32,345 nucleotides of DNA from Pseudomonadota bacterium. Lineage in GTDB: Bacteria; Desulfobacterota; Desulfobulbia; Desulfobulbales; CALZHT01. This document shows, piece by piece, positions 4,230 to 27,850 of this stretch (position 1 is the first letter of the stretch; each line of letters starts with the position of its first letter). The notes below the pieces were generated by a model. That model was not told where the DNA came from. It saw nothing but the letters and a program-made list of their open reading frames with translations, and ran no database searches. The stretch is taken from contig JAHJJF010000050.1 in NCBI GenBank assembly GCA_018823135.1, positions 1 through 32,345 of the forward strand, given 5' to 3'. Made by a program: the position numbers and the translations under genes.

Positions 4230-5990
4230 ATGCAAAATCAAACCAACCAGTTCATCCCGGCATCCCGCGCCGAGATGAAACAAAACAAATGGGATGCGGT
4301 GGACATCGTCCTGGTCACAGGAGATGCTTACATCGACCATCCTTCTTTCGGGGTCGCGTTAATTGCCCGATGGCTCGAGGCCCATGGTTACAGGGTAGCA
4401 ATTCTTGCTCAACCGGAACACAATTCTTCTGAGGATTTCAAGCGTTTCGGCAGACCGGCGCTGTTTTTCGGGATTACCGCCGGCAATCTCGACTCGATAG
4501 TTGCCAACTACACCGGCAATGCCAAAGTCAGGGATCAGGACAATTATTCGCCTCTGGGCAATCCGTATTTTGGAGACGACAAAAACAAAACAAGACGACG
4601 GCGGCCCGACCGGGCAACCATCCGCTATACCAACCTCGCTAAAGCCGCATATCCAGATGTTCCGGTTATTCTCGGTGGAATTGAAGCTTCCTTAAGGCGT
4701 TTCATCCATTTTGATTACCAGCAGGATAAAATACGAAATTCAGTGCTCACCGACGCCAAGGCCGATCTTCTCGTTTATGGAATGGGAGAACGTGCGGTGC
4801 TGGAAATCGCCAGCCGAAGATCTCAAGGAAAAAGCCTTGCGGAAATCGACGGGACATGCGAACGACTTACCGACAAGGAAATTGAGCTCCGGACCCAAAA
4901 CATCGATTCTGTTGTCCTGCCCGGCTGGCAGGAAATACATGCTGATCTGCCGAAATTTATGGCAGCGGAAAAGCTGATTGATACATATTCCCGAAGCCTC
5001 GAAAATATATCAATTATCCAAAAACAGCAGGCCATGTGGGTCCTCCAGCACCCTCCGCCCCCCCCCCTTGACACACAGGAAATGGATTTCCTCTATTCCC
5101 TCCCCTATACCCGCCTGCCCCATCCGGCAAATAAAGGGAACATACCTGCGTACGCCATGGTCCGCGATTCTGTGACCATTGTCCGGGGATGCTACGGTAA
5201 TTGCTCCTTCTGCGCTATTTCAAGACATCAAGGGCCGATAATCAGCACAAGAAGCAAAATGTCGATTATTAAAGAACTTGAAAAAATTGCTCTTTCCAAA
5301 GACTTCAAAGGAACCATAAGCGATCTTGGCGGCCCCAGCGCCAACATGTACGGCACCTCCTGCGCAAGTCCCAATCCGTGTAAACGTCATGATTGTCTCA
5401 ACCCTGGCCTTTGTAAACACCTGCGGATTGACGAGAATCAATTCCTCCAGCTCCTCAGCGAGGCAACATCCGTAAAAGGAATAAAAAACGTGTTCATTTC
5501 TTCGGGAATGCGCATGGAACTTCTGCTGAAAACTCCGAAACTGCTCAAAAAACTGATCAGCGAAAACACTCCGGGATTAATGAAAATAGCTCCTGAACAC
5601 AGCCAGACGGAAATACTGCGCCTGATGCACAAGAATGGTTCGACACTTCTCGCTGAATTTCTGAAAACCTGCAGGGAAACTGCGCAGGCAGCACATAAGA
5701 CTATTGGATTTTCGCCCTACTACATTGCCTCACACCCGGGGAGCACAATCAGCGACATGGAAAAACTGGCAATTTCCATCCAGGAAAACGGCCTTACCGT
5801 AAAACATTTCCAGGATTTCACGCCAACACCGGGAACCCTTTCCACGGCTATGTATGTGACCGGCCTGGATCGCGACACATTGAAGCCGATCTTTGTCCCT
5901 CGCCACAAACGGCAAAGACTGGCCCAAAGAAATATTCTTGAAAAAATCAGTCTCCGTAATAAATCAGTGCGCATAAAAAAGACCCGGTAA
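4230..5990 (+). CDS. ygiQ: YgiQ family radical SAM protein
   Basis: 586 residues. The N-terminal ~300 residues carry the B12-binding-like region of the YgiQ/UPF0313 family (DIVLVTGDAYIDHPSFG, LGGIEASLRR, DLLVYGMGERA) and the conserved proline run before LPYTRLPHP. The radical SAM cluster motif is C321-x3-C325-x2-C328 in VRGCYGNCSFCAI, followed by a TIM-barrel-like half with a further cysteine set near 5360-5420 (CASPNPCKRHDCLNPGLC). The C-terminal part (KHFQDFTPTPGT, FVPRHKRQR) is typical of the family. The biochemical role of YgiQ proteins is unknown; they are widespread and usually cytoplasmic. A run of ten C bases at 5058-5067 lies inside the proline codons. The gene is followed by a terminator at 6051-6083. 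Confidence 0.93.
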   Translation: MQNQTNQFIPASRAEMKQNKWDAVDIVLVTGDAYIDHPSFGVALIARWLEAHGYRVAILAQPEHNSSEDFKRFGRPALFFGITAGNLDSIVANYTGNAKVRDQDNYSPLGNPYFGDDKNKTRRRRPDRATIRYTNLAKAAYPDVPVILGGIEASLRRFIHFDYQQDKIRNSVLTDAKADLLVYGMGERAVLEIASRRSQGKSLAEIDGTCERLTDKEIELRTQNIDSVVLPGWQEIHADLPKFMAAEKLIDTYSRSLENISIIQKQQAMWVLQHPPPPPLDTQEMDFLYSLPYTRLPHPANKGNIPAYAMVRDSVTIVRGCYGNCSFCAISRHQGPIISTRSKMSIIKELEKIALSKDFKGTISDLGGPSANMYGTSCASPNPCKRHDCLNPGLCKHLRIDENQFLQLLSEATSVKGIKNVFISSGMRMELLLKTPKLLKKLISENTPGLMKIAPEHSQTEILRLMHKNGSTLLAEFLKTCRETAQAAHKTIGFSPYYIASHPGSTISDMEKLAISIQENGLTVKHFQDFTPTPGTLSTAMYVTGLDRDTLKPIFVPRHKRQRLAQRNILEKISLRNKSVRIKKTR

Positions 5991-7006: not shown

Positions 7007-7933
7007 ATGAAAAAAATCTTTTTTCTCATACTTTCCCTGTTGTTTCTTCTTTCTTCAGAAACTTCTGCGGATACGGGTAATATATTTGTTGTCCAGAGTT
7101 CCAGACTCAAACCATACATGGAGGCCCTTGACGGTCTCCGATATACTTTACGCAACATCCCCCCGCAAAAAGCTCAAAAATCAATACAGTCTTATACGAT
7201 AACGGAATTCCTCCTCACCGGAGACTGGAGCTGGAAAAACCTCCAGCAAACTATTGAAAGCAAGCAACCTCAACTCATTGTAGCCATTGGCACTAATGCC
7301 CTTGCCGCCCTCGAACCCGTTGTTGATATACCGATAATTTATCTCATGGTGCCTTTTCCAGAGTCCCTGATTAACGGCCGGAAAAATATTACCGGCATTG
7401 ATATGAAACTGAACCCCGAAACCCATTTGGCTGCAATATTGGGTAGTTTGCCCGCAACAAAAAAAATCGGTACCATTTATGATCCCCGGAAAAATTCAAA
7501 CCTTGTCCAGAAAATTAAAGAAATTGCCCGGCAATACAAAATTGAACTCGTCGCCCTAAAAACCGATGACCCAAAAAAAGTTCCGCAATTACTCTCTGAA
7601 ATTGCCGCTCATATAGATCTGTTCTGGATGCTGCCGGACCTCACGGTGTTAACTCCTGAGACCACTGAGCAGATACTTTACTTTTCCCTGGAGAACAGGA
7701 TCCCGGTTGCTACATTTTCCTCTAAATATCTCAAACAAGGGGCGGTGATCGCCGTTACTTTCGACATTTTTGATATGGGTAAACAGGCAGGTGAGCTTGC
7801 CGAAATGATCGTTGACGGCACACCCGCTCATGAAATTTCACCCCGCCCTGCCAGGACCACCAGACTCCAGGTCAATCATTCTGTAGCCAAAAATCTCGGC
7901 ATTGAGATACAGGAATTGAAGAATAATGATTAA
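7007..7933 (+). CDS. Periplasmic ABC substrate-binding protein (ABC_sub_bind family)
   Basis: 308 residues with a clear signal peptide (KK, hydrophobic 4-16, cleavage likely after ETSA near residue 21). The mature part resembles the ABC_sub_bind family (Pfam PF04392 as I recall it): QLIVAIGTNALAAL, IPIIYLMVPFPESLI, KKIGTIYDP, LFWMLPDLTVLTPETTEQIL and the end domain with IPVATFSSKYLKQGAVIAVTFDIFDMGKQAGELA. Ligands in this family include amino acids or related small molecules and vary a lot. The gene overlaps the following sensor kinase gene by 8 bases (the ATG of the kinase lies within its last codons) and no permease or ATPase gene is next to it. I infer that it presents a ligand to the kinase's periplasmic domain. 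Confidence 0.85.
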   Translation: MKKIFFLILSLLFLLSSETSADTGNIFVVQSSRLKPYMEALDGLRYTLRNIPPQKAQKSIQSYTITEFLLTGDWSWKNLQQTIESKQPQLIVAIGTNALAALEPVVDIPIIYLMVPFPESLINGRKNITGIDMKLNPETHLAAILGSLPATKKIGTIYDPRKNSNLVQKIKEIARQYKIELVALKTDDPKKVPQLLSEIAAHIDLFWMLPDLTVLTPETTEQILYFSLENRIPVATFSSKYLKQGAVIAVTFDIFDMGKQAGELAEMIVDGTPAHEISPRPARTTRLQVNHSVAKNLGIEIQELKNND

Positions 7934-9716
7934 ACCCATCCGATATTTAAAACAAAATTTCAGTGCAAAAGTTTTTTTCTATATCTTCTGCGGGATGATT
8001 ATCATTTTCAGCTCACTGAATCTTTTTTTCATTCACCTTCAACGGCAGACATTAGAGCAAAACCTCTATAGCCAGGGGGTCATGCATGTTAAAAATCTTG
8101 CATACTCCACGCGTCTGGGGGTTTTTACTGAAAACCACGACATGCTTGTCAACCTCATTGACGGCGTGCTTTTTAATACGGAAAACTCCCTGATACAAGC
8201 CTGTATCCTTTCATCTGACGGCGCCCCCCTGACATCCAAGAGAAAAGATACGTACCGGCAAAACAACATTAATTGCGCCATAGATATTTATTCTCCAGAA
8301 GAATTAATGATCAAAATAAAAGATGCCCCAAACAGATTATTCATCCTCGAACATGCCGACCATATCGAATTCTGGAGCCCGATTCTTGCGACCTCCAGCC
8401 TACAGACTTACGATTCCCTTTATTTTGATACCGTAAATGAAAATGTCCTTCATAAACAGAGAGTTATAGGTGCAATCGGCGTAACAATTGATAAGGCTCC
8501 ACTCAAGAAAGGCCTTGAAACAATCCTCAAAAGAACCATCACAAGCGGCATATTTTTTCTATTTCTTGCCGGCATTATCACCTATCTCATCACTCGAGAG
8601 GTTACTGCGCCGCTTAAAAAACTGATCCATAGAGTGGAAGAACGTGGAATTGTCATAGAGGCGGCCAATCAACTTGATCTTCTCGAGGGCACTTTCAATA
8701 ATCTGGTCAGAGGCCTGGAAGAGTCCATAACAACCATTGCAAATCTGAAAGAAAACCTTGAACTGAAAGTCGATGAACGTACCCATGCACTTCTGGAACA
8801 CAGCGTCTATCTCGAAAAAACCAACCAGGAACTGGAAAAAACATTGCGGCGGCTAAAGGAGGCCCAGACCCAACTAGTGCATTCTGAAAAGATGGCGGCA
8901 TTAGGCCAGCTTGTTGCCGGTGTTGCACATGAAATCAATAATACAACCAATTTTATTTCCGGCGCCCTGCCACCATTAACCCGGGGGGTGAATGATCTGA
9001 ATACCTTTCTTGATCTTTGCAATCAACTCCCCGAACACAGTGACGAAGACAAGATTATCGATCATTTCAAGATAACAGCGAAATATCGGAAAGATTTTCA
9101 GTTTAATAAACTTCCTGAAATTATGAATACTCTCATCGCAAACATTGCCGAAGGCACCCAGAGAACCACACAGATTGTCCAGGACCTGAAAAACTTTTCC
9201 CGCCCGGAAGAAGACCTCATGGTGCAAACGGATATAAACAAGAACCTTGAAAGCACCTTGACCCTGCTCCACAATGAATACAAATACAATATTGAGATTT
9301 TTAAAAATCTTGACCAGACACTTCCGACAGTATCGTGTTACCCCAGCCAGTTGAACCAGGTTTTTCTTAATATATTGCTTAATTCCATTCAATCCATCAA
9401 AGGAAAAGGCGTCATATGGATCAGCACCTGGCTTGAAGGCGAATTCGTCCATATACGAATCAAGGATAACGGTTGCGGCATTCCGGATGAGATTCGTGAA
9501 AAAATCTTTGATCCTTTTTTTACCACAAAAGAAGTTGGTCAGGGGACCGGTCTGGGATTGAGTATTTCATACGGAATCATTCAGAAGCATTCAGGAAAAA
9601 TTAAAGTCAACAGTCAACCCCAAAAAGGCACGGAAATGGAAATCATTATTCCCACTGTATTAAAAAAATCTACTATTGAATATGAAGAAGCTCATGATAT
9701 TGCTTTGAGCCAATAA
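7926..9716 (+). CDS. Membrane sensor histidine kinase
   Basis: 596 residues. Membrane segments at about 16-37 and 206-222 enclose a periplasmic domain of about 165 residues; a HAMP-like stretch and a long coiled coil follow (residues about 225-320, rich in E, K and L), then HisKA with His335 in GVAHEINNTTNFI, and an HATPase domain with DNGCGIP and GQGTGLGLSISYGI. All kinase boxes are present; there is no attached receiver. The gene overlaps the preceding binding-protein gene by 8 bases and the response regulator gene begins about 60 bases downstream, so the three form a ligand receptor-kinase-regulator cassette. The periplasmic domain has no motif that I recognise. Confidence 0.92.
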   Translation: MIKPIRYLKQNFSAKVFFYIFCGMIIIFSSLNLFFIHLQRQTLEQNLYSQGVMHVKNLAYSTRLGVFTENHDMLVNLIDGVLFNTENSLIQACILSSDGAPLTSKRKDTYRQNNINCAIDIYSPEELMIKIKDAPNRLFILEHADHIEFWSPILATSSLQTYDSLYFDTVNENVLHKQRVIGAIGVTIDKAPLKKGLETILKRTITSGIFFLFLAGIITYLITREVTAPLKKLIHRVEERGIVIEAANQLDLLEGTFNNLVRGLEESITTIANLKENLELKVDERTHALLEHSVYLEKTNQELEKTLRRLKEAQTQLVHSEKMAALGQLVAGVAHEINNTTNFISGALPPLTRGVNDLNTFLDLCNQLPEHSDEDKIIDHFKITAKYRKDFQFNKLPEIMNTLIANIAEGTQRTTQIVQDLKNFSRPEEDLMVQTDINKNLESTLTLLHNEYKYNIEIFKNLDQTLPTVSCYPSQLNQVFLNILLNSIQSIKGKGVIWISTWLEGEFVHIRIKDNGCGIPDEIREKIFDPFFTTKEVGQGTGLGLSISYGIIQKHSGKIKVNSQPQKGTEMEIIIPTVLKKSTIEYEEAHDIALSQ

Positions 9717-9775
9717 AAACCACAGACTTTCCCTTAGGTACTTAAAAACAATTTGTGAGGCGCCAACGTACTGAA

Positions 9776-10627
9776 ATGAACAAAATACTCTATATAGATG
9801 ACGAAAAAATAAATCTCACCAATTTCACCCAAACCTTCAACCGGGATTATGAGATCTTTACTGCAATAAACGGTGAGAAGGCACTGGATATACTTGAGCA
9901 GATCGGTGAAGTTTCGCTCGTCATAACCGATCAACGCATGCCGGGCATGTCCGGTGTTGAAGTGTTATATGCCATCAAAGAACTTTATCCAGACACCTCA
10001 CGGATGGTCATAACCGCCTATACGGATGTCGATTATCTCGTTGATGCAATAAACCGCGGTCACGTATATCAATATATTTTCAAACCCTGGAATGAAGTGG
10101 AGCTCAGAATCAAGGTCAAACACGCTGTTGATAAATATATCCTTACCAAGAGAAACCAGAAGCTTCTTGCCTGGCTTGAAAAAATGAACACGGAACTTGA
10201 AGACCGGGTCATCGAAAGAACAAAAGAACTCAATACGACAAACACTCTATTGAAATTGAGCAACAATGAACTTCGTGAAGCGCACACAACCGTACGGGAA
10301 CAGGCTGAAAAACTGGAAAAAAGCAATCACGAGCTCAAATGGAAGTTAAAAGAGCTTGAAAAAACAAAGGAAGAGGTCAAATCACTTCAGGATTTACTAC
10401 CGATCTGCTCATACTGCAAAAAGATTCGCGATGATGATCACTATTGGGAAGAAGTGGAAAGCTATATCCGGCGATTTAATAATGAACTTGAATTTTCACA
10501 CAGCATTTGCCCGGACTGTTACGAAAAACATATAGTCCCTGAGCTTGCCGTTTTTGCAGAGGAACAGAAAAAACAGAAAAAAACCGGCAAGAATGTGATC
10601 GAAATGCACCGCGAGGAAGAAGATTGA
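9776..10627 (+). CDS. Response regulator with coiled coil and C-terminal four-cysteine module
   Basis: 283 residues from the ATG at 9776, which begins the receiver directly (KILYIDDEK); a GTG at 9755 in frame would add seven residues and cannot be excluded. Receiver at 1-120 with Asp52 in VITDQRMPG and Lys in FKPW, so it should be phosphorylated, presumably by the kinase encoded just upstream. Then comes a coiled coil (about 125-205) and a cysteine module: ICSYCKKIRDDDHYWEEVE ... HSICPDCYEKH, i.e. two CxxC pairs about 35 residues apart, likely one zinc site. This module is common at the end of PAS/GGDEF/kinase proteins of Desulfobacterota; its job is unknown. There is no DNA-binding domain, so output is probably by protein contact. 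Confidence 0.88.
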   Translation: MNKILYIDDEKINLTNFTQTFNRDYEIFTAINGEKALDILEQIGEVSLVITDQRMPGMSGVEVLYAIKELYPDTSRMVITAYTDVDYLVDAINRGHVYQYIFKPWNEVELRIKVKHAVDKYILTKRNQKLLAWLEKMNTELEDRVIERTKELNTTNTLLKLSNNELREAHTTVREQAEKLEKSNHELKWKLKELEKTKEEVKSLQDLLPICSYCKKIRDDDHYWEEVESYIRRFNNELEFSHSICPDCYEKHIVPELAVFAEEQKKQKKTGKNVIEMHREEED

Positions 10628-17385: not shown

Positions 17386-18402
17386 ATGTACAAAAACACC
17401 CCACTTTCCCTGTTCATCCTTACTTGCCTTATTTTCTTTTATTTACCTCCGCATAATGCTGATGCATCCGGCACTGAAGAAATTCAGATACAAAAACCAC
17501 TACCTGGTAAATCAGCAAAAACTCGCACCTCTCGTCTTGAAGAAATAAGTTTAACCCTGGAAACGGGATACCGGGTTGACCAACTCGACTGGAATCATGC
17601 ATCCGATAGAACCGGTAATACCACCCCGAACATCCGTTCCGAACTCACCTGGGAAGACATTGAAAGTTATCAATTGCGAGCGGCAGGCCGAATCACCCAC
17701 AAAATGGGCCGGCTGCCTTTTTCTGCGACCTACCGCGGCTATATCAGTTCTGGCTTGATTGTTGACGGGATGAATCAGGATTCTGATTATAACGGAAATG
17801 ACCGCGCCCAGGAATTTTCGCGCTCCAACAATTCAAGTGATGACGGCTCGGTCTTTGACACTCAGTTTGGCCTCGGATTCACCTTTCGGCCATCACCCAA
17901 ACGATTCCATATCTCCCCTCTTTTCGGCTGGTCCTATCATGAACAGAACCTCACAATGACCGACGGCGATCAAACCATTCCCGCCACAGGTTCCTTCAGT
18001 GGCCTTGACAGTTCTTACAATAGCCAGTGGTACGGATTGTGGACCGGCGCGGAAATCGAATTCATGCCCATTAACAAACTGGCTCTTACCGGAAGCCTGG
18101 AACTCCATTCAGTCAAATATTATGCAGAAGCCAACTGGAACTTACGGAATGATCTTAAGCACCCGAATAGTTTTGAACACAATGCAGATGAAGGAAGCGG
18201 CATAGTTTTAAATCTGGGCGGCAAATATATCTTCGGCAAAAAGTGGTCGCTCAATCTTGCTCTTAATTACAGCAAATGGCAGATGGAAAACGGCACCCAT
18301 ACTTTTCATATGAGTTCAGGCGCTAATGTTACTTATCGATTAAACGAGGTCAACTGGGAATCTTTCAGCTCCATGGTCGGGGTCAAATACAGATTCAAAT
18401 AA
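17386..18402 (+). CDS. Outer-membrane beta-barrel protein
   Basis: 338 residues. A signal peptide (FILTCLIFFYLPPHNADA, cleavage near residue 27) is followed by a short polar spacer and alternating amphipathic strands: LEEISLTLETGYRVDQLDW, NIRSELTWEDIESYQLRAAG, LPFSATYRGYISSG, FDTQFGLGFTFRP, FHISPLFGWSYHEQNL, YGLWTGAEIEFMP, GIVLNLGGKYIFG, WSLNLALNYSKWQ and a last strand MVGVKYRFK with the aromatic residue typical of barrel C-termini. About 10-12 strands. The pattern SELTWEDxExYQL resembles proteins annotated with the Protochlamydia outer-membrane domain or with omptin-like barrels; no protease active-site set is evident. Ribosome site GGAG is 11 bases ahead of the ATG. Function unknown. Confidence 0.82.
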   Translation: MYKNTPLSLFILTCLIFFYLPPHNADASGTEEIQIQKPLPGKSAKTRTSRLEEISLTLETGYRVDQLDWNHASDRTGNTTPNIRSELTWEDIESYQLRAAGRITHKMGRLPFSATYRGYISSGLIVDGMNQDSDYNGNDRAQEFSRSNNSSDDGSVFDTQFGLGFTFRPSPKRFHISPLFGWSYHEQNLTMTDGDQTIPATGSFSGLDSSYNSQWYGLWTGAEIEFMPINKLALTGSLELHSVKYYAEANWNLRNDLKHPNSFEHNADEGSGIVLNLGGKYIFGKKWSLNLALNYSKWQMENGTHTFHMSSGANVTYRLNEVNWESFSSMVGVKYRFK

Positions 18403-20422: not shown

Positions 20423-23212
20423 ATGAAGAAGAAAGCGAACAGATTTATAGGACTAAGTTCGGTTTTTGTACTGGCAGGCTCTCTCGCCCTTTACGGGTGC
20501 GGCGGTGGCGGCGACACCCCCCCAACCGCTGGTGCAACCAATACGGACGGTGAAACCTTATCCAGCCAGACTTCAGGATTGACTCTGCCCTCTGAAGTTT
20601 CAGCGGTTCCGGCAAGCTCCACGCCATCATCTTCCCTATATACAGCGCTGCGCAATCTTTCCTCTGCAGTCGCAGCCCTTCCCGCTACCTCTGATTATGC
20701 CAATGCAAAGGGCGCAAAATATATTAAAGAACCCACCATCGACCAGTTTGAGATCATCGAGGAAGTCTTGAATGCCGTAGCTCAAACTAACTACTCTGAC
20801 CCAACAAACATCAACAACGGCCCATATAAAGCAATGGTTGCGATGACCGACGAAAATCAAGGGATAGAAATCAAAAAACTGGAACCCTGGGTTGTTGACT
20901 CGCGGATGATCGTTGTGGACGGTCAGGATGTCAACAGGGTCCTTTGCTGGATCGAAGAAGTTGACCGCATGAACCCCACCGTTTCAAAAACCATCAAAGC
21001 GGAAATGAAGATTTATGCTGCGGCGACCCTGAGTGCCGATGGAGAAATACTTGATCTCGGAACCTGGGAATTGAATGTTTCGTTTTCAGATGATGCATCA
21101 AACTTCTTTGTTGCATCCGCAGAGCCCAACCCAAACGGCGGCTCCATCCTGAGAGTCAATGAATATGAAAATTTCGGCCCCGGCGATGAACACACCATGA
21201 AAGGCGTTCTTTATCGCGCCGGCACCGTTGGATACGGCAAGGTCCTTTATACCGATTATGATTCCTGTACGGAATGGCCCTGCACCCCCACCAACGCCAC
21301 AGCAAAATATGCATACAACACCGATTACCTGGGTGTTCAGAAAGAAAGCGCTGCAATTATTTATAAAGATCGTAGCCTTACCTATGACATGACCCATCGC
21401 TACGGCCTGTTCTATGATGAAAATGCCACCGGCACCGGCCCAACCGGAAAAGCCATCGTTTCCGGCGACAACGTCATGAAGCATTATAACTTTGGCTTCC
21501 CGGTAGTGTACACAAGTGATAATGATGGCGGCAGATACTATGCTTATTACGGTGCATGGCAGGGACGCCATCAGCTCTGGGGCAGTGAGGATGGCGGTTT
21601 CGCAGCCGACCAGCAAGTAACCAAAGAATCATGGGGTTCAGGTGCTGCTGAAACCTACACTATTGCCGATCCATTATTAGGCTCTTTCACTAAACGTACT
21701 TACGTTGATGCGACCCTTGACGACATCAAGAATGTTCCAGTAGAAACCTGGATTGATAAGCGTTTTGACTTGTTCTTTGACGGCGCCAACTGGCAGAAAT
21801 GCGCCGACGGCTGGATCGATTTTTCCGGGCCGACCTGCATGGGATTTGACAATAATCCTAAATCGATGACCACCTATACACCAAATGGCGAACTCATTGT
21901 CGGCCCTGAAGACCGTAAATGGGTCGGTATCGGCCGTTGGGATAACATAAACTCTCTTCAAAAAGATTATGTTTACATTGACAGCACCGTAGTCAACCCG
22001 CCATCAGGGTATTCATCTCCTGGTTTCTTTGAAGCACAACAGGGTCAAAACGGCCTGCAGGCTAAAGACCCGGCAGTTCCTTATACTCCATCCACCAACG
22101 ACCAGTTGTGGGTCAGTATCGGCGGCTCCATCTATATCGCCTATGTCGGTTTTCCACACGCAGATACAACCACCGGCTGGGTGCAGAAAGAACTGCAGGA
22201 ATTCGATACCCGCAACTGGAAGCCTGTTTTCACCGGAACAAACTCTCCATTCACTCCTGATATGGGCCGCGAATACTACATGAACAGCAACGGTGTCAAC
22301 TATGTCATCAAACGTAAAGCCAATGTCGGCAGTACTGCTGATGACTATGAAGCATTTCTTGAAGTACAGACCACAGCAAATCCGGCAAACTGCACTGCCA
22401 CCGACTGCACGGATATCATCCCGGACGCAGTTGACTATCTCAGGACCCCCTGGGATCCGAATATGAGATATGCACTTGTAACCGCTGCGGCTGACCCTAA
22501 TTATCTCCTGGTTAAATTCCTCACTGATGATATCAACACCACGAGTGTCGATGAAAGTGCAGTAACAACAGTTTATTCACAAGGTGCCTGGGGACTCCAG
22601 GGCTGGAATAATGGCACGGATACCGTTGCTGGAACCACTGACGACTTTCCGGTTGACGCTCTCGGAGCTGCAGTTACTGTTGATGAATGGGGATTCCCCA
22701 CCGGCGGCGAAACCGACAGGCCTGTTGAATTCAACTGGGAATACGCGGCTAACGGCGGCTGGGGACAGCAGCAGTATCTGAAGGATATCAGCGGCAACTA
22801 TGTAATCCTTTCCGATCCTATCATGCTGAACGCATTCGATGCTACCAACGGCGCCAGTGTCACCAAGACCCTGATGCTGCAGTATGACGGCTGGCTGCAC
22901 GGCTTGCCTGATATGCATCAGGCCTTACAGCAGAACGACTGGGAAATGACTACTGATCTTGCTGACAAGATCATCAATATCCCTGCCGGCCAAGAAGTAA
23001 CCGACGGTACAAACGGCTTCTACCTTAAACCGCTTGATACCAGTGTCTTCCTGGCAGTTGTTGGCGACACAACCGGCCTGACTCTGCCGGATGTCACCCA
23101 GGCGGATGCCATAAACCTTACAACCGATGTTCCGGATTACACTGCTCACGGCATGGGCACTATGCCGGTGGTGACCACAGTGAAATACTCCGAAGGAGTT
23201 CTGGTTGAATAA
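20423..23212 (+). CDS. Large secreted lipoprotein of unknown function
   Basis: 929 residues. N-terminal KKK, a hydrophobic segment and the lipobox LYGC with Cys26, followed by glycines and a low-complexity Ser/Thr/Pro linker to about residue 70; absence of Asp after the Cys predicts outer-membrane sorting. The rest is one long region rich in Gly, Asp, Thr, Trp and Tyr, with no membrane helix and no heme motif. Cysteines come in close pairs (DSCTEWPC, CADGWIDFSGPTC, NCTATDC), suggesting disulfides. Phrases such as YYAYYGAWQGRHQLWG, VWVSIGG-like and WVGIGRWDN suggest beta-propeller or beta-solenoid repeats, but I cannot name a family. Strong ribosome site GGAGG. Driven by the -24/-12 promoter; ends at a strong terminator facing the maturase gene. 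A surface or periplasmic role is inferred from the lipobox. Confidence 0.85.
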   Translation: MKKKANRFIGLSSVFVLAGSLALYGCGGGGDTPPTAGATNTDGETLSSQTSGLTLPSEVSAVPASSTPSSSLYTALRNLSSAVAALPATSDYANAKGAKYIKEPTIDQFEIIEEVLNAVAQTNYSDPTNINNGPYKAMVAMTDENQGIEIKKLEPWVVDSRMIVVDGQDVNRVLCWIEEVDRMNPTVSKTIKAEMKIYAAATLSADGEILDLGTWELNVSFSDDASNFFVASAEPNPNGGSILRVNEYENFGPGDEHTMKGVLYRAGTVGYGKVLYTDYDSCTEWPCTPTNATAKYAYNTDYLGVQKESAAIIYKDRSLTYDMTHRYGLFYDENATGTGPTGKAIVSGDNVMKHYNFGFPVVYTSDNDGGRYYAYYGAWQGRHQLWGSEDGGFAADQQVTKESWGSGAAETYTIADPLLGSFTKRTYVDATLDDIKNVPVETWIDKRFDLFFDGANWQKCADGWIDFSGPTCMGFDNNPKSMTTYTPNGELIVGPEDRKWVGIGRWDNINSLQKDYVYIDSTVVNPPSGYSSPGFFEAQQGQNGLQAKDPAVPYTPSTNDQLWVSIGGSIYIAYVGFPHADTTTGWVQKELQEFDTRNWKPVFTGTNSPFTPDMGREYYMNSNGVNYVIKRKANVGSTADDYEAFLEVQTTANPANCTATDCTDIIPDAVDYLRTPWDPNMRYALVTAAADPNYLLVKFLTDDINTTSVDESAVTTVYSQGAWGLQGWNNGTDTVAGTTDDFPVDALGAAVTVDEWGFPTGGETDRPVEFNWEYAANGGWGQQQYLKDISGNYVILSDPIMLNAFDATNGASVTKTLMLQYDGWLHGLPDMHQALQQNDWEMTTDLADKIINIPAGQEVTDGTNGFYLKPLDTSVFLAVVGDTTGLTLPDVTQADAINLTTDVPDYTAHGMGTMPVVTTVKYSEGVLVE

Positions 23213-23289: not shown

Positions 23290-23325
23290 CCCCACTCATA
23301 ACTCAACTCTCAGCACTCAGCACTG
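23290..23325. repeat. CT-rich CACTCA-type low-complexity tract, locus 2
   Basis: CACTCATAACTCAACTCTC followed by AGCACTCAGCACT. The tract overlaps the 3' end of the maturase gene and supplies its TGA stop. Confidence 0.65.
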
Positions 23326-24606
23326 TCCTATTCCCTGTTTCACAAGGGTTTCAAGGGCTGCATCCCAATAGGGACGCTGGCAATCAACGCCATTCAGATG
23401 ACCGTCGCGCTGGAATTTATAATACCGGCAGCCGCCGAAACACAGCGGCAGGTATTGGCAATCAGTGCATTCATCCTGTTTTTTCCAGGAATCCAGATTA
23501 TGGCTGTGCCGGTAATCTCCGACTCCGTGTTCAATATCCCCCACTGCAAATTGATCGTGGCCAATGAGGGAAGGGCATTTATAGATCACCCCGTCATAAT
23601 GCACCACAAAGGCGTCATTCACATCCACCATGCATGGCGAGGGACTAACCTTGGGGCTGGCAAATCCCCTGGCAATCGCATCGGCATTTAAAACGGTTGA
23701 GGCCTCAACCAGCCAGGGCTCGTTGATTGATTCGCAACCGCCGTGGCATTCCGGTCCGGCAAATTCGTCGTTCACCTGCATCACCGGGTTGAAATTCACC
23801 TGATGCAGTTGTTTGGGGCCGACAGCCATTCCCTCAAGATGATCGAGGAGCTGCGGGAAATCTTGATAATTTTCCCTGGTGAAATTGCCGCCCAGAGTGA
23901 TTTTCACCAGGTCCCAGGATTGGCTGATATTGTTGAGGATTATATCAAAGCTTGCTGCGCCGTTTTTAAAGGGTCGGAATTTGTTATGATTATCAGACGG
24001 GCCGTCCACGGTGATCTTGGCATTGGTGAGGCCGTATCGCGCTAATTCTTCCGCGGTCTTTCTGGTTAGCAGGGAGCCGTTGGTCACCAGAGTGAAGTTG
24101 AATTCGCCGCCCCGCGCCTCCACAAAGGGTTTGAGCTTTGATGCAAAATACTTGATTCGGCTCTGATAGATCAATGGCTCGCCGCCGTAGAAATCAAGGG
24201 TGAGTTTCAACTTGTCAGCGGTAAAACGATTTTTGACAAATTCAATTATCCGGTCGGCTGTTTCATCGCTTATTGCGGCCTTGCCTTTCTGCGAGCCTTC
24301 ATAGCAATAAGTGCAGGCAAAATTACACTCCATACCGAGGATGATGGTGACTGATAGATTGGGGTTGATCCGGTTGATCTCATCCATCATTGAGAAAACT
24401 TCATCACGCTCATCATCAAGATCGGCAACCAGCATTTCCAGTTCAATCAGGGTTTGTTGGTTATCTCCAATTGACTTGCCGTTTTGTAATGCCTTAATTT
24501 CTTCATCAGGAAGCAGGACAAGAGATGCCCGCTTGGTGGAGTACAACAGAGAATATCCGGGTTCCTGGGGATAGGGCCAGATTTTGAGGTAGCGAGAGAG
24601 CTTCAT
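23317..24606 (-). CDS. Radical SAM/SPASM peptide maturase
   Basis: 429 residues from the ATG at 24606, which has AAGGAG 4 bases ahead; the frame is open 18 codons further but without a ribosome site. The radical SAM motif is C94-x3-C98-x2-C101 in GMECNFACTYCYEG, followed by DFYGGEPL. The C-terminal SPASM domain is complete: C325 and C344, then C380-x2-C383-x5-C389-x3-C393 and C409, which should hold two more iron-sulfur clusters. The N-terminal ~85 residues (LSRYLKIWPYPQEPGYSLLYSTKRASLVLL) act as a peptide-recognition-like region in such enzymes. SPASM maturases install thioether, C-C or epimer changes on ribosomal peptides. A 33-residue cysteine peptide is encoded 955 bases upstream on the same strand. 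From memory it resembles enzymes named geopeptide maturases; unverified. Confidence 0.88.
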   Translation of the reverse strand: MKLSRYLKIWPYPQEPGYSLLYSTKRASLVLLPDEEIKALQNGKSIGDNQQTLIELEMLVADLDDERDEVFSMMDEINRINPNLSVTIILGMECNFACTYCYEGSQKGKAAISDETADRIIEFVKNRFTADKLKLTLDFYGGEPLIYQSRIKYFASKLKPFVEARGGEFNFTLVTNGSLLTRKTAEELARYGLTNAKITVDGPSDNHNKFRPFKNGAASFDIILNNISQSWDLVKITLGGNFTRENYQDFPQLLDHLEGMAVGPKQLHQVNFNPVMQVNDEFAGPECHGGCESINEPWLVEASTVLNADAIARGFASPKVSPSPCMVDVNDAFVVHYDGVIYKCPSLIGHDQFAVGDIEHGVGDYRHSHNLDSWKKQDECTDCQYLPLCFGGCRYYKFQRDGHLNGVDCQRPYWDAALETLVKQGIGQC

Positions 24607-24649
24607 GAAACTCCTTTTTGTTGGTTTAAAAATCTGGGGACATGGAGAA

Positions 24650-24697
24650 ATCACTACCATCTTTACACTCTTAACACAGCACTCATCACTATGCCTT
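24650..24697. repeat. CT-rich CACTCA-type low-complexity tract, locus 3
   Basis: TCACTACCATCTTTACACTC then CAGCACTCATCACTATG, lying 3 bases beyond the stop of the PIN gene and in the leader of the maturase gene. Confidence 0.55.
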
Positions 24698-24699
24698 AC

Positions 24700-25077
24700 C
24701 TATCCCCAGAGAGCTTTGGGATACTTTTCCAGAATAAGTTGATCTTTTGTAATTAAATGGACGTTTCTGGCGACAGCGGCGGCAGTGATCATCCGATCAA
24801 AAGGATCTCTTGTCCAAGTCTGGAGGATTGCTTCAGAAATGAGCTGCATCAAGGATAAATCACAGGACTTCAGACCAATGCAGCTTGCCAGGTTTTCAAA
24901 GATTAAAGTCGGAGGTACGTTCAGTCTGCCGATTTCGTTGAGGTATTGGAGCTCAAGGAGCACTATCGGTGAAATCAATAAATCGTTTTCCTCTATGGCG
25001 TCCTTAACCTTTTCCGGAAACAACCCCGTCTCCCCGGCATAAAGCCAGACAACAACATGGGTATCAAGGTAGATCAT
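24700..25077 (-). CDS. PIN domain toxin (VapC-like)
   Basis: 125 residues from the ATG at 25077, which has AGGAG 7 bases ahead inside the antitoxin gene; the longer frame from 25110 has no support. PIN-domain ribonuclease pattern: IYLDTHVVVWLY (Asp5), LLELQYL (Glu42), TRDPFDRMI (Asp91, Asp94) and ITKDQLI (Asp112), the acidic cluster that binds the catalytic metal. Proteins of this subgroup cleave RNA when free of antitoxin. The start overlaps the antitoxin gene by 14 bases, the classic arrangement of a toxin-antitoxin pair. The toxin gene ends 93 bases before the maturase start, so maturase transcription may depend on this operon. Confidence 0.9.
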   Translation of the reverse strand: MIYLDTHVVVWLYAGETGLFPEKVKDAIEENDLLISPIVLLELQYLNEIGRLNVPPTLIFENLASCIGLKSCDLSLMQLISEAILQTWTRDPFDRMITAAAVARNVHLITKDQLILEKYPKALWG

Positions 25078-25294
25078 TGCGCCACTCCTCAGACCAATCG
25101 AGGTGGACAATTGACTCAGGATCCCCCTTTAAACATGAATGTTTGACAAGCTTTTTCAACTTGGAAATTTTCCCCGTTGAAACTATCTGCAGGAGTTTCC
25201 CTTTTCTTTCGATGGTCAGTGGTTGACCGGATTCCAATACCTGATCAAGGAGTTTATAGATGTTGCCTCGCAGGGCTGAAGCTGTAAGCGGCAT
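25064..25294 (-). CDS. Antitoxin, Phd/YefM-like
   Basis: 76 residues from the ATG at 25294, with GAGG/AGGTGG just ahead; a start four codons upstream lacks one. The N-terminal part (PLTASALRGNIYKLLDQVLESGQPLTIERKGKLLQIVS) has the short beta-alpha-beta DNA-binding pattern of Phd/YefM or closely related antitoxins; the C-terminal part (residues about 47-76, ESIVHLDWSEEWRNDLP) is a charged toxin-binding tail. It is upstream of, and overlaps, the PIN toxin gene. The promoter carries an inverted repeat, consistent with autoregulation by the antitoxin or the complex. Confidence 0.85.
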   Translation of the reverse strand: MPLTASALRGNIYKLLDQVLESGQPLTIERKGKLLQIVSTGKISKLKKLVKHSCLKGDPESIVHLDWSEEWRNDLP

Positions 25295-25318
25295 ATTCCA
25301 CCTCACTTGTTAATGGTA

Positions 25319-25359
25319 GCGTACGCATAAATATTATCATCACGTACGCCCGAATGCAA
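25319..25359 (-). promoter_or_regulatory. Promoter with operator-like inverted repeat for the toxin-antitoxin operon
   Basis: Minus-strand -35 TTGCAT (25359-25354), a 17-base spacer, -10 TAATAT (25336-25331). The 7-base arms GCGTACG (25319-25325) and CGTACGC (25343-25349) flank the -10 region. This is the expected layout for an autoregulated toxin-antitoxin promoter. Confidence 0.68.
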
Positions 25360-25510
25360 CTTTAATTTATGGTTCTTGGATGTCGCCGGATTTCAACCCA
25401 GGATGGATATAATTTTCCTGGCATATGCCGCCATGCTGGTTTTAATTACATTTGTCGCATGCACGCTCAAATCTTTTCGTGACTTCTTCGAATGCCCATA
25501 AAAAGCGCAT

Positions 25511-25539
25511 AAAAAAAGGGAGCGGTATCCGCCCCCTTT
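25511..25539 (-). terminator. Rho-independent terminator of the precursor peptide gene
   Basis: On the minus strand the arms AAAGGGGGCGG and CCGCTCCCTTT (25539-25515) pair over 11 positions with one G-U pair around ATA, followed by a run of T (25517-25511). It ends 21 bases beyond the stop codon of the 33-residue peptide and separates it from the toxin-antitoxin operon. Confidence 0.88.
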
Positions 25540-25560
25540 AAACCGGTTATGGTGATATGT

Positions 25561-25662
25561 TTATCTTGCTGATGCTGTCGCGGTACCTGCTTTACAGCAA
25601 GCCATGTTTAGCACGATTTCTTTCAATTTGATTCCCTTATTCAGTACGATTGCTTTTTTCAT
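25561..25662 (-). CDS. Small cysteine peptide, probable substrate of the radical SAM maturase
   Basis: 33 residues from an ATG at 25662 with an excellent ribosome site (AGGAGGGAG, about 8 bases ahead). The frame is open 29 codons further upstream, but only this start has a ribosome site. It opens with MKKAIVLNKGIKLKEIVLN, a basic amphipathic leader-like part, and ends with MACCKAGTATASAR: Cys22-Cys23 then a Gly/Ala/Thr/Ser tail that looks like a core peptide. There is no double-glycine site and no signal peptide. Downstream is a clean terminator, upstream the terminator of the TonB receptor gene, so it is a single-gene transcript. Peptides of this size with a conserved leader and a Cys-containing tail, near a SPASM maturase, are typical of ribosomally made, modified peptides. 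Modification is inferred, not seen. Confidence 0.75.
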   Translation of the reverse strand: MKKAIVLNKGIKLKEIVLNMACCKAGTATASAR

Positions 25663-25900: not shown

Positions 25901-27850
25901 TCAATAATTAAAACGGATGCCACCTTCGAACCAGCGGCCCGGATCAACATAATCAAAAGTAGTGGTACTTGTTCCATTGGCGATGTTATGCACGGAGAAA
26001 AAGAAATCCACATCCTGCCATTTGCCGAAAATTCCTTTGGAGTTCAACATGAAATCCCAGATCATATCATCGCAGCTATATGGAATTGCAAACAGGCCCT
26101 CCTCATACCACCGGTAGTTCCCTAAAAACTGTGCAGAAAAAATATCGTCTTTCACATAGCGGAGAGCAATATCCGAGCCGTATTCTTCCTTATTTTTGCC
26201 GTCTTCATAATCTTCAACATTGACCAGATCAAAACTTGCCCGCACAGATAAATTATAATACTGCATGGTTTCAAGCTCGACTTCAAAGCCCTGACGTCTG
26301 GCCTTTCCTGAATTTACCGCCATGTAATTGTCTGGATTGGTCGGGGAATTTATATAGTCCAGGGCATTCCTTAAATCATGTTGAAACAGGGTTGTTTTAA
26401 TCCAGACAAAGCCGGGATCAGATGATTCAAAACCCACCTGGTAGGATGTTACCTTTTCAGGCTTCAGGTCCGGATTCGGGTCAGCAAAAAGCGAGCCGCT
26501 TGAAGTTTCCAAAAGATTGGGGCTTGAAAACCCCCGTGAACAGGAGGCGCGGAAAACGGTTTTACTCAGGCTGTAGGTGAGACCAATACTTGGACTGGCA
26601 AAACCGCCGAATACTGAAGCGTGGTCATAGCGGATGCCAGGGGTCAGTGCAAAATCCCCCATCACAATAGTATCATTAATATACACGCCTACCTCGTCGC
26701 GTGTTGGTGAGAATTCATCTACGGGATCCGCGCCGCCGCCGTCCTCAGATTGCAGATAATCACCAGACTCAGCAGTAAAGTCCATTTCGCTGTGGATGAT
26801 ATCAGCTCCCATGACCATGGTTCCCAGATAACCTGTATCCAGATTGAAAATGGCGCTGCCGCCATGGGAATGACTGTCAAAAATACCATTAAAATAAAGA
26901 TCGCCAACCGGCCCATATACGCCGTTTTCATCATTATTTTGAACACCTTTTTTGTTCAGGGAATAGAGCAGGACATTGAGCATAAGATTGTCTGTGAGCC
27001 TGGCATCAAAATTGGCATTCACATAATCAGTACGCATAATACCGTGTGAAATAAGAAAAGAGTACTCCAGGTTGCCATAATTTTCATAGTTTTCGCCATA
27101 GCCTGCGGTCAATTTAAGGGACATGTCGCTTCCCATGTCGATATTCATTTTGCCTAAAAAGGTCTGTTCAGTATAATAGCGATTATTATTGAGTCCGTCG
27201 GTTTCCTTGGCGCCTGCATAGGCGTAATAACTTACATTACCGCCCTTGCCGGACATTGTTGCCCGGGTGTCCGAGGTGTTGGCGCTGCCTTCGGACCAGG
27301 AGATGTTCCCCGAAGGTGAACGAGATGTCCCTGCATCCTTGGTGATGATGTTGATGATCCCGCCCAGAGCGGAACCCCAGGTGGAAGAGGCTGGCCCCTT
27401 GATGATTTCAATACGTTTTACGATTTCAACAGGTATTGTGCCCATTGTGGTGCCGCTACTAGGAATACTCCAGCGCATACCGTCCAGCAACACGGTCATA
27501 TGCCTCTGCTCAGAACCCTGGATCGTGGGGCTAACACCAATAAAGTCATCCCGTAAATCATCGGATGATATTCCAGCAACCCTTCGCAACACATCATCGA
27601 TGGTGTGGGCGTTCATGTCTTTAATCTGCTTGGCAGTGATGATGGATACATTTTCAGGAATCTGCCAGACCGGCTTTGGGGCACGGGTGGTGGCTTCAAC
27701 AAGATCGAATTCGGAAAAATAGAGCAAAAGGTCTTCGCCTTCTCTGGGTGATTCCTGCTCTGCGGCTGAAACTCCGAAAGGCTGAAGCAGCAATACGAAG
27801 GCGATTACAATAAGCGGCTTAAAAACTTTCCACAGAGACTTCTCGTTCAT
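25901..27850 (-). CDS. TonB-dependent outer-membrane receptor
   Basis: 649 residues. Signal peptide at 1-29 (LIVIAFVLLLQPFGVSA), a TonB-box-like stretch after it, plug domain at about 55-175 (VSIITAKQIKDMNAHTIDDVLRRVAGI, TIQGSEQRHMTVLLDGMRW, VEIVKRIEIIKGPASSTWGSALGGIINIITK), then about 22 barrel strands ending in WFEGGIRFNY. Sequence signatures such as FRASCSRGFSSPNLLE and LKPEKVTSYQVGFE are typical of the siderophore/vitamin B12-type receptors (CirA/BtuB group). The ligand is not evident: no cobalamin riboswitch is seen upstream and no strong Fur box. It is followed by its own terminator, then the peptide gene, so it may import a metal complex or the modified peptide itself; that link is speculation from proximity. 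Confidence 0.93.
   Translation of the reverse strand: MNEKSLWKVFKPLIVIAFVLLLQPFGVSAAEQESPREGEDLLLYFSEFDLVEATTRAPKPVWQIPENVSIITAKQIKDMNAHTIDDVLRRVAGISSDDLRDDFIGVSPTIQGSEQRHMTVLLDGMRWSIPSSGTTMGTIPVEIVKRIEIIKGPASSTWGSALGGIINIITKDAGTSRSPSGNISWSEGSANTSDTRATMSGKGGNVSYYAYAGAKETDGLNNNRYYTEQTFLGKMNIDMGSDMSLKLTAGYGENYENYGNLEYSFLISHGIMRTDYVNANFDARLTDNLMLNVLLYSLNKKGVQNNDENGVYGPVGDLYFNGIFDSHSHGGSAIFNLDTGYLGTMVMGADIIHSEMDFTAESGDYLQSEDGGGADPVDEFSPTRDEVGVYINDTIVMGDFALTPGIRYDHASVFGGFASPSIGLTYSLSKTVFRASCSRGFSSPNLLETSSGSLFADPNPDLKPEKVTSYQVGFESSDPGFVWIKTTLFQHDLRNALDYINSPTNPDNYMAVNSGKARRQGFEVELETMQYYNLSVRASFDLVNVEDYEDGKNKEEYGSDIALRYVKDDIFSAQFLGNYRWYEEGLFAIPYSCDDMIWDFMLNSKGIFGKWQDVDFFFSVHNIANGTSTTTFDYVDPGRWFEGGIRFNY

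Follow-up and report, generated by a model that had tools for sequence, protein, structure and literature searches.

The geopeptide family has been named, but no function was given for it in the open-licence papers searched. Queries on geopeptides or TIGR04280, or on radical SAM enzymes together with TonB, Geobacter or metallophore, returned nothing relevant from open-licence PMC papers, and a broader search of that collection found only general papers on radical SAM RiPPs. The solved enzyme nearest to the maturase described here, by both sequence and fold, is CteB, which forms thioethers. Methanobactin, a RiPP copper carrier, is a small Cys-containing peptide with a dedicated TonB-dependent receptor, MbnT. 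Here, a peptide/maturase pair in a 32,345-nucleotide stretch of DNA from an anaerobic bacterium of the Desulfobacterota (the window) was compared with its relatives. Judged by its family match, the pair is of a known kind, TIGR04280, and the Geobacter-type peptide/maturase pairs named in an earlier note on this DNA proved to be that same, real kind. What appears new are the receptor and sensor partners, of which no description was found in the open-licence papers; subscription journals or NCBIfam text may hold one.

The geopeptide precursor and its maturase

The maturase gene occupied 23317..24606 on the minus strand (23320-24606 without the stop codon) and encoded a protein of 429 aa, which matched TIGR04280 (“geopeptide radical SAM maturase”, NCBIfam) with 544 bits against a cut-off of 400, covering positions 1-426 of 428. 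Ten cluster-type cysteines were invariant in 54 orthologues, namely C94/C98/C101 of the radical SAM CxxxCxxC motif and the seven SPASM cysteines C325, C344, C380, C383, C389, C393, and C409; besides these seven, an eighth Cys, C291, was also invariant. The AF2 model had a pLDDT of 92.8, and its closest fold was CteB (5why). The ATG at 24606 fits the family start MxLSxYLK, is preceded by AAGGAG and gives the length of 429 aa. Judged from these features, it is most likely the start, so that the stretch 24607-24660 is probably non-coding. The complete SPASM enzyme proposed earlier was confirmed, and its cysteine numbers already fit this start, which takes the place of one at 24660. A single-protein scan of a collection of genome contigs gave no relatives, and the scan was repeated with an alignment.

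The precursor gene lay upstream of the maturase at 25561..25662 on the minus strand, with the ribosome site AGGAGG nine bases before the ATG, and encoded a 33-aa peptide, MKKAIVLNKGIKLKEIVLNMACCKAGTATASAR, consisting of the leader MKKAIVLNKGIKLKEIVLNMA and the core CCKAGTATASAR. The peptide matched no NCBIfam or Pfam model, and 97 stretches around maturase relatives were therefore collected from genomes of the phylum and order. Against a profile built from 81 CC peptides upstream of maturase relatives, from which the window peptide was left out, the window peptide scored 38.0 bits, while the best of 30,566 unrelated background small ORFs reached 13.7. A CC peptide was found upstream of the maturase orthologue in 73/73 fully covered loci (those whose sequence reaches 4.2 kb or more upstream of the maturase) and in 89/91 of all loci, the two without it both lying near contig ends. 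Absence of the peptide beside maturase orthologues, named in the earlier note as the finding that would speak against the pairing, was thus not seen at any fully covered locus, and the pairing itself was borne out by the held-out profile. By its sequence, the window peptide is of the substrate type of the TIGR04280 maturase, and the two almost certainly act together.

The locus peptides shared the design IVLxKG...EVA...CC..., with a consensus leader of (I/V)(I/V)VLxKG and EVA, followed by CC and a short tail rich in Gly, Pro, Ser, Ala, and basic residues. The two adjacent cysteines, present in 94/96 peptides, were the only nearly invariant feature of the core, the rest of which varied between lineages, and no conserved Asp/Glu acceptor followed CC among the locus peptides. 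The two exceptions each keep one cysteine: the geopeptides of L158 (4080-4175) and L160 (4358-4459) carry ANC and GC in place of CC and adjoin intact maturases, which makes them natural tests of which cysteine matters. Two tandem geopeptides (5245-5358 and 5451-5567) were observed ahead of one maturase in L069.

The peptide gene was followed by an intrinsic terminator at 25511..25536 on the minus strand, GGGGGCGG-ATA-CCGCTCCC-T7, which was exact and unique, with 0 expected by chance. This element, the peptide ORF and its ribosome site were all recovered at the positions first noted. A hairpin with a T run after the peptide gene, separating it from the maturase, was present in 50/92 loci, compared with 4.7 expected from shuffles. 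The likely effect of such a terminator is a precursor in excess of the enzyme, and its conservation between the two genes offers a simple explanation for that excess.

Between the geopeptide terminator and the maturase of the window, the gap was filled by a pair of genes (24700-25306, minus strand) that the earlier note had omitted and that are not part of the module: a Phd/YefM-like antitoxin at 25064..25306 (PF02604, 25.8 bits, below the cut-off of 29.8) and a PIN-domain (VapC-like) toxin at 24700..25110 (PF01850, 39.2 bits, cut-off 23.6). The relatives have no such pair there, and their terminator-maturase gap is usually 40 to 130 bp; the 955 bp between peptide and maturase in the window result from this insertion. 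Although the distance and the intervening toxin-antitoxin pair could suggest that the peptide is a chance or unrelated small ORF and not the substrate, this reading is strongly contradicted by the 38.0 bits against 13.7 and by the same type of peptide at all 73 fully covered loci, by which it is ruled out; its probability is negligible.

The linked receptor and sensor genes

Clustering of the ORFs neighbouring the maturase relatives identified two recurrent partners. The first was a TonB-dependent outer-membrane receptor of 649 aa (PF07715 and PF00593), which in the window is encoded at 25901..27850 on the minus strand and ends 240 bp upstream of the peptide gene; it had been left out of the earlier note and not linked to the system. 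A BtuB/Cir-like homologue lay within 5 kb of the maturase in 73/73 fully covered loci. Since the genomes hold only 1-23 TonB receptors (7 in that of the window), the chance of such adjacency is about 1%. Across the order (194 genomes), 58/61 genomes with the maturase and 8/133 without it had a receptor of the window type (58 vs 3; 8 vs 125), giving an odds ratio of about 300 and a Fisher P of about 1e-36. Some of the receptor-only genomes retain other traces of the system: a maturase remnant persists in L164 and L165 and an intact geopeptide in L165 and L170; the sequence of L166 stops within a maturase, and L168 has a divergent one. In L164 (7242-7631) and L165 (4504-4644) the maturase fragments were accompanied by receptor and sensor genes, an apparent decay of the enzyme with uptake retained. 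The distances among maturases and those among receptors correlated at 0.83, while the largest value of 2000 permutations was 0.13, and in a genome with two copies of the system each receptor tracked its own maturase; shared ancestry of the genomes alone therefore does not explain the correlation. The same layout of the module was found in Nitrospirota (L197, L199), and no window-type receptor occurred within 6 kb at 41 other SPASM maturase loci, many of which belong to organisms that lack an outer membrane. In Omnitrophota (L213, L214, L219, L222), maturases about 28-31% identical had a TonB receptor 2-4 kb upstream, and L219 also has a CC peptide.

Thus, a receptor with plug and beta-barrel is genetically tied to producer genes, which is one mark of a TonB-dependent metallophore uptake system; the other would be a product that binds a metal and enters through the receptor. 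The receptor very probably serves the same function as the peptide and the maturase. What adjacency shows is joint function, not the identity of a ligand; the modified peptide is nonetheless probably the ligand of the receptor. The receptor model (pLDDT 86.7) was closest in fold to BtuB, then Cir, PfeA, and FpvA, a match that gives the class of the receptor and not its ligand. The fold search also returned the PQQ receptor PqqU, as well as Cir-microcin V and FhuA-microcin J25. TonB receptors serve many microcins and lasso peptides as the way into the cell, and the last two matches would suit an antibacterial, microcin-like peptide that enters competitors through the receptor, or a receptor that helps to protect the producer itself. 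It would be surprising, however, for a toxin-producing cell to maintain a receptor that admits the toxin and co-evolves with it, and neither a recurrent immunity gene nor a dedicated bacteriocin exporter was found, which makes such a role very improbable.

The second partner was a periplasmic ABC_sub_bind (PF04392) protein, which adjoined 62/73 full loci, with a histidine kinase at 57/73, mostly following it. In the window, the binding protein (7007..7933, plus strand) matched those of 67 geopeptide loci, with a best score of 265 bits and up to 47% identity, and was the genome's only ABC_sub_bind protein to resemble the geopeptide-linked ones. Its gene is overlapped by that of a sensor histidine kinase (7926..9716, plus strand; HisKA/HATPase_c), which scored 322 bits to the kinase of the geopeptide locus L116. 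Just 3' of the kinase lies a response regulator (9755..10627, plus strand; Response_reg), a putative member of the module by its position only, whose best NCBIfam model was a NosR-type regulator, below cut-off. The nearest named model of the binding protein was a tryptophan-binding protein, far below cut-off, and the ligand might on this account be other than the peptide.

Two arrangements recurred among the relatives, in which kinase and binding protein are divergent either from receptor, peptide and maturase or, together with the receptor, from peptide and maturase. In 61 loci the genes of binding protein and receptor pointed away from each other across less than 900 bp, and a search of this promoter region for common sigma-54 sites or k-mers yielded nothing but A/T runs and a handful of family-level words. 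No metal-responsive motif or RNA element common to the loci emerged, and an Rfam search of the window gave nothing. No gene downstream of the maturase recurred in more than 4 of 100 ORFs, which places the end of the module at the maturase. Peptide, enzyme, receptor and, mostly, the sensor pair form one conserved module. All its main parts are present in the window but rearranged, with the binding protein/kinase pair about 14 kb from the rest. Elsewhere in the window, a 929-aa lipoprotein-like protein of no Pfam family (20423-23212, plus strand) is encoded convergent to the maturase and has a homologue downstream of the maturase in the same-family genome L146; a PF17251 protein (Protochlamydia outer membrane protein, 215 bits) at 17386-18402 on the plus strand was found far from the lineage that gave the family its name.

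The sensor pair at most loci, as well as the differences between lineages in the core outside CC, which are usual in pheromones, would fit a modified CC peptide that acts as a pheromone without any metal: the cell would secrete it, take it in again through the receptor and detect it by means of the binding protein and kinase. Pheromones rarely enter by TonB-dependent uptake, which is costly, and two adjacent cysteines kept while the rest varies suit a chemical or metal role; signalling of this kind is considered unlikely.

Export, re-uptake and the proposed role

The statement in the earlier note that no exporter is evident held for the neighbourhood of the pair, but nine relatives carry an MFS_3/EntS-like exporter gene in the locus. 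In six of the nine (L107, L110, L056, L061, L063, L065) it lies in the gap between peptide and maturase, the contigs of L063 and L065 ending there; the remaining EntS-like exporters are elsewhere in the locus. The exporter was absent from most loci, and a recurrent protease was found in none. These absences, together with the match of the receptor to PqqU (PQQ being itself a radical-SAM RiPP cofactor), could point to a system in which receptor, binding protein and kinase import and sense an external nutrient, while the peptide serves as an internal or periplasmic redox cofactor or as a chaperone for its use. EntS-like exporters recur in different families and at different positions, which favours a role for export over such an internal peptide; the latter we regard as improbable.

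A receptor beside the pair in every fully covered relative suggests that the cell makes, releases and takes back the modified peptide. On balance, with moderate confidence, we favour a geopeptide RiPP system that is linked with uptake through the outer membrane and with sensing, its likeliest role being to scavenge thiophilic metals. We infer modification at CC, export, re-uptake, sensing and metal scavenging, in the following order. The separate short transcript with its own terminator would provide more precursor than enzyme. The TIGR04280 enzyme would recognise the IVLxKG...EVA leader and act around the cysteine pair of the core, most likely forming a thioether, as CteB does, or a related radical bond. 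A general protease may then trim the peptide, and the product would leave the cell, in some species perhaps via the EntS-like MFS exporter. Probably loaded with a metal or other small ligand, it would re-enter through the linked TonB-dependent receptor, and the periplasmic binding protein and histidine kinase may sense the imported compound and set expression.

The system would most likely help anaerobes of sulfidic or metal-reducing habitats to scavenge a thiophilic trace metal. We favour, though tentatively, a role of the modified peptide as a metallophore. It is likewise possible, and put forward with reserve, that geopeptides form a widespread class of cysteine-based RiPP metallophores, made by radical SAM enzymes in Desulfobacterota and some Nitrospirota. 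After export, they would be reloaded via a TonB receptor of their own and sensed by a binding-protein/kinase pair devoted to them. The near-universal TonB receptor with its co-evolving sequence, as well as the sensor pair, gives geopeptides a concrete role that can be tested, namely that of ribosomal peptides imported across the outer membrane, possibly to scavenge thiophilic metals that are scarce where sulfide ties them up. Such a role would also supply a ligand for a family of orphan TonB receptors.

Comparison with known systems

With the described TIGR04280 geopeptide pair, the window shares the family match over cut-off and the short CC peptide upstream of the maturase, and differs in the Phd/PIN pair between them. 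CteB/SCIFF and other ranthipeptide maturases (PapB) are likewise SPASM enzymes with two auxiliary cluster sites, but their cut-offs were missed (TIGR03974, 101 vs 425 bits; NF047865, 139 vs 340 bits), and their peptides contain six Cys or Cys-x3-Asp/Glu repeats, whereas the geopeptide here contains two Cys and no conserved Asp/Glu. Methanobactin resembles the system in that its ribosomal peptide is likewise small, contains Cys and has a TonB-dependent receptor of its own, but it is made with the MbnB/MNIO enzyme (PF05114), of which the window's genome assembly (95% complete) gave no match; a radical SAM enzyme is found here instead. Enterobactin-type siderophore systems (EntS, FepA/Cir) share the EntS-like exporter of some loci and the Cir/PfeA/BtuB-like receptor, but their siderophore is a catechol, whereas the geopeptide loci encode a ribosomal peptide.
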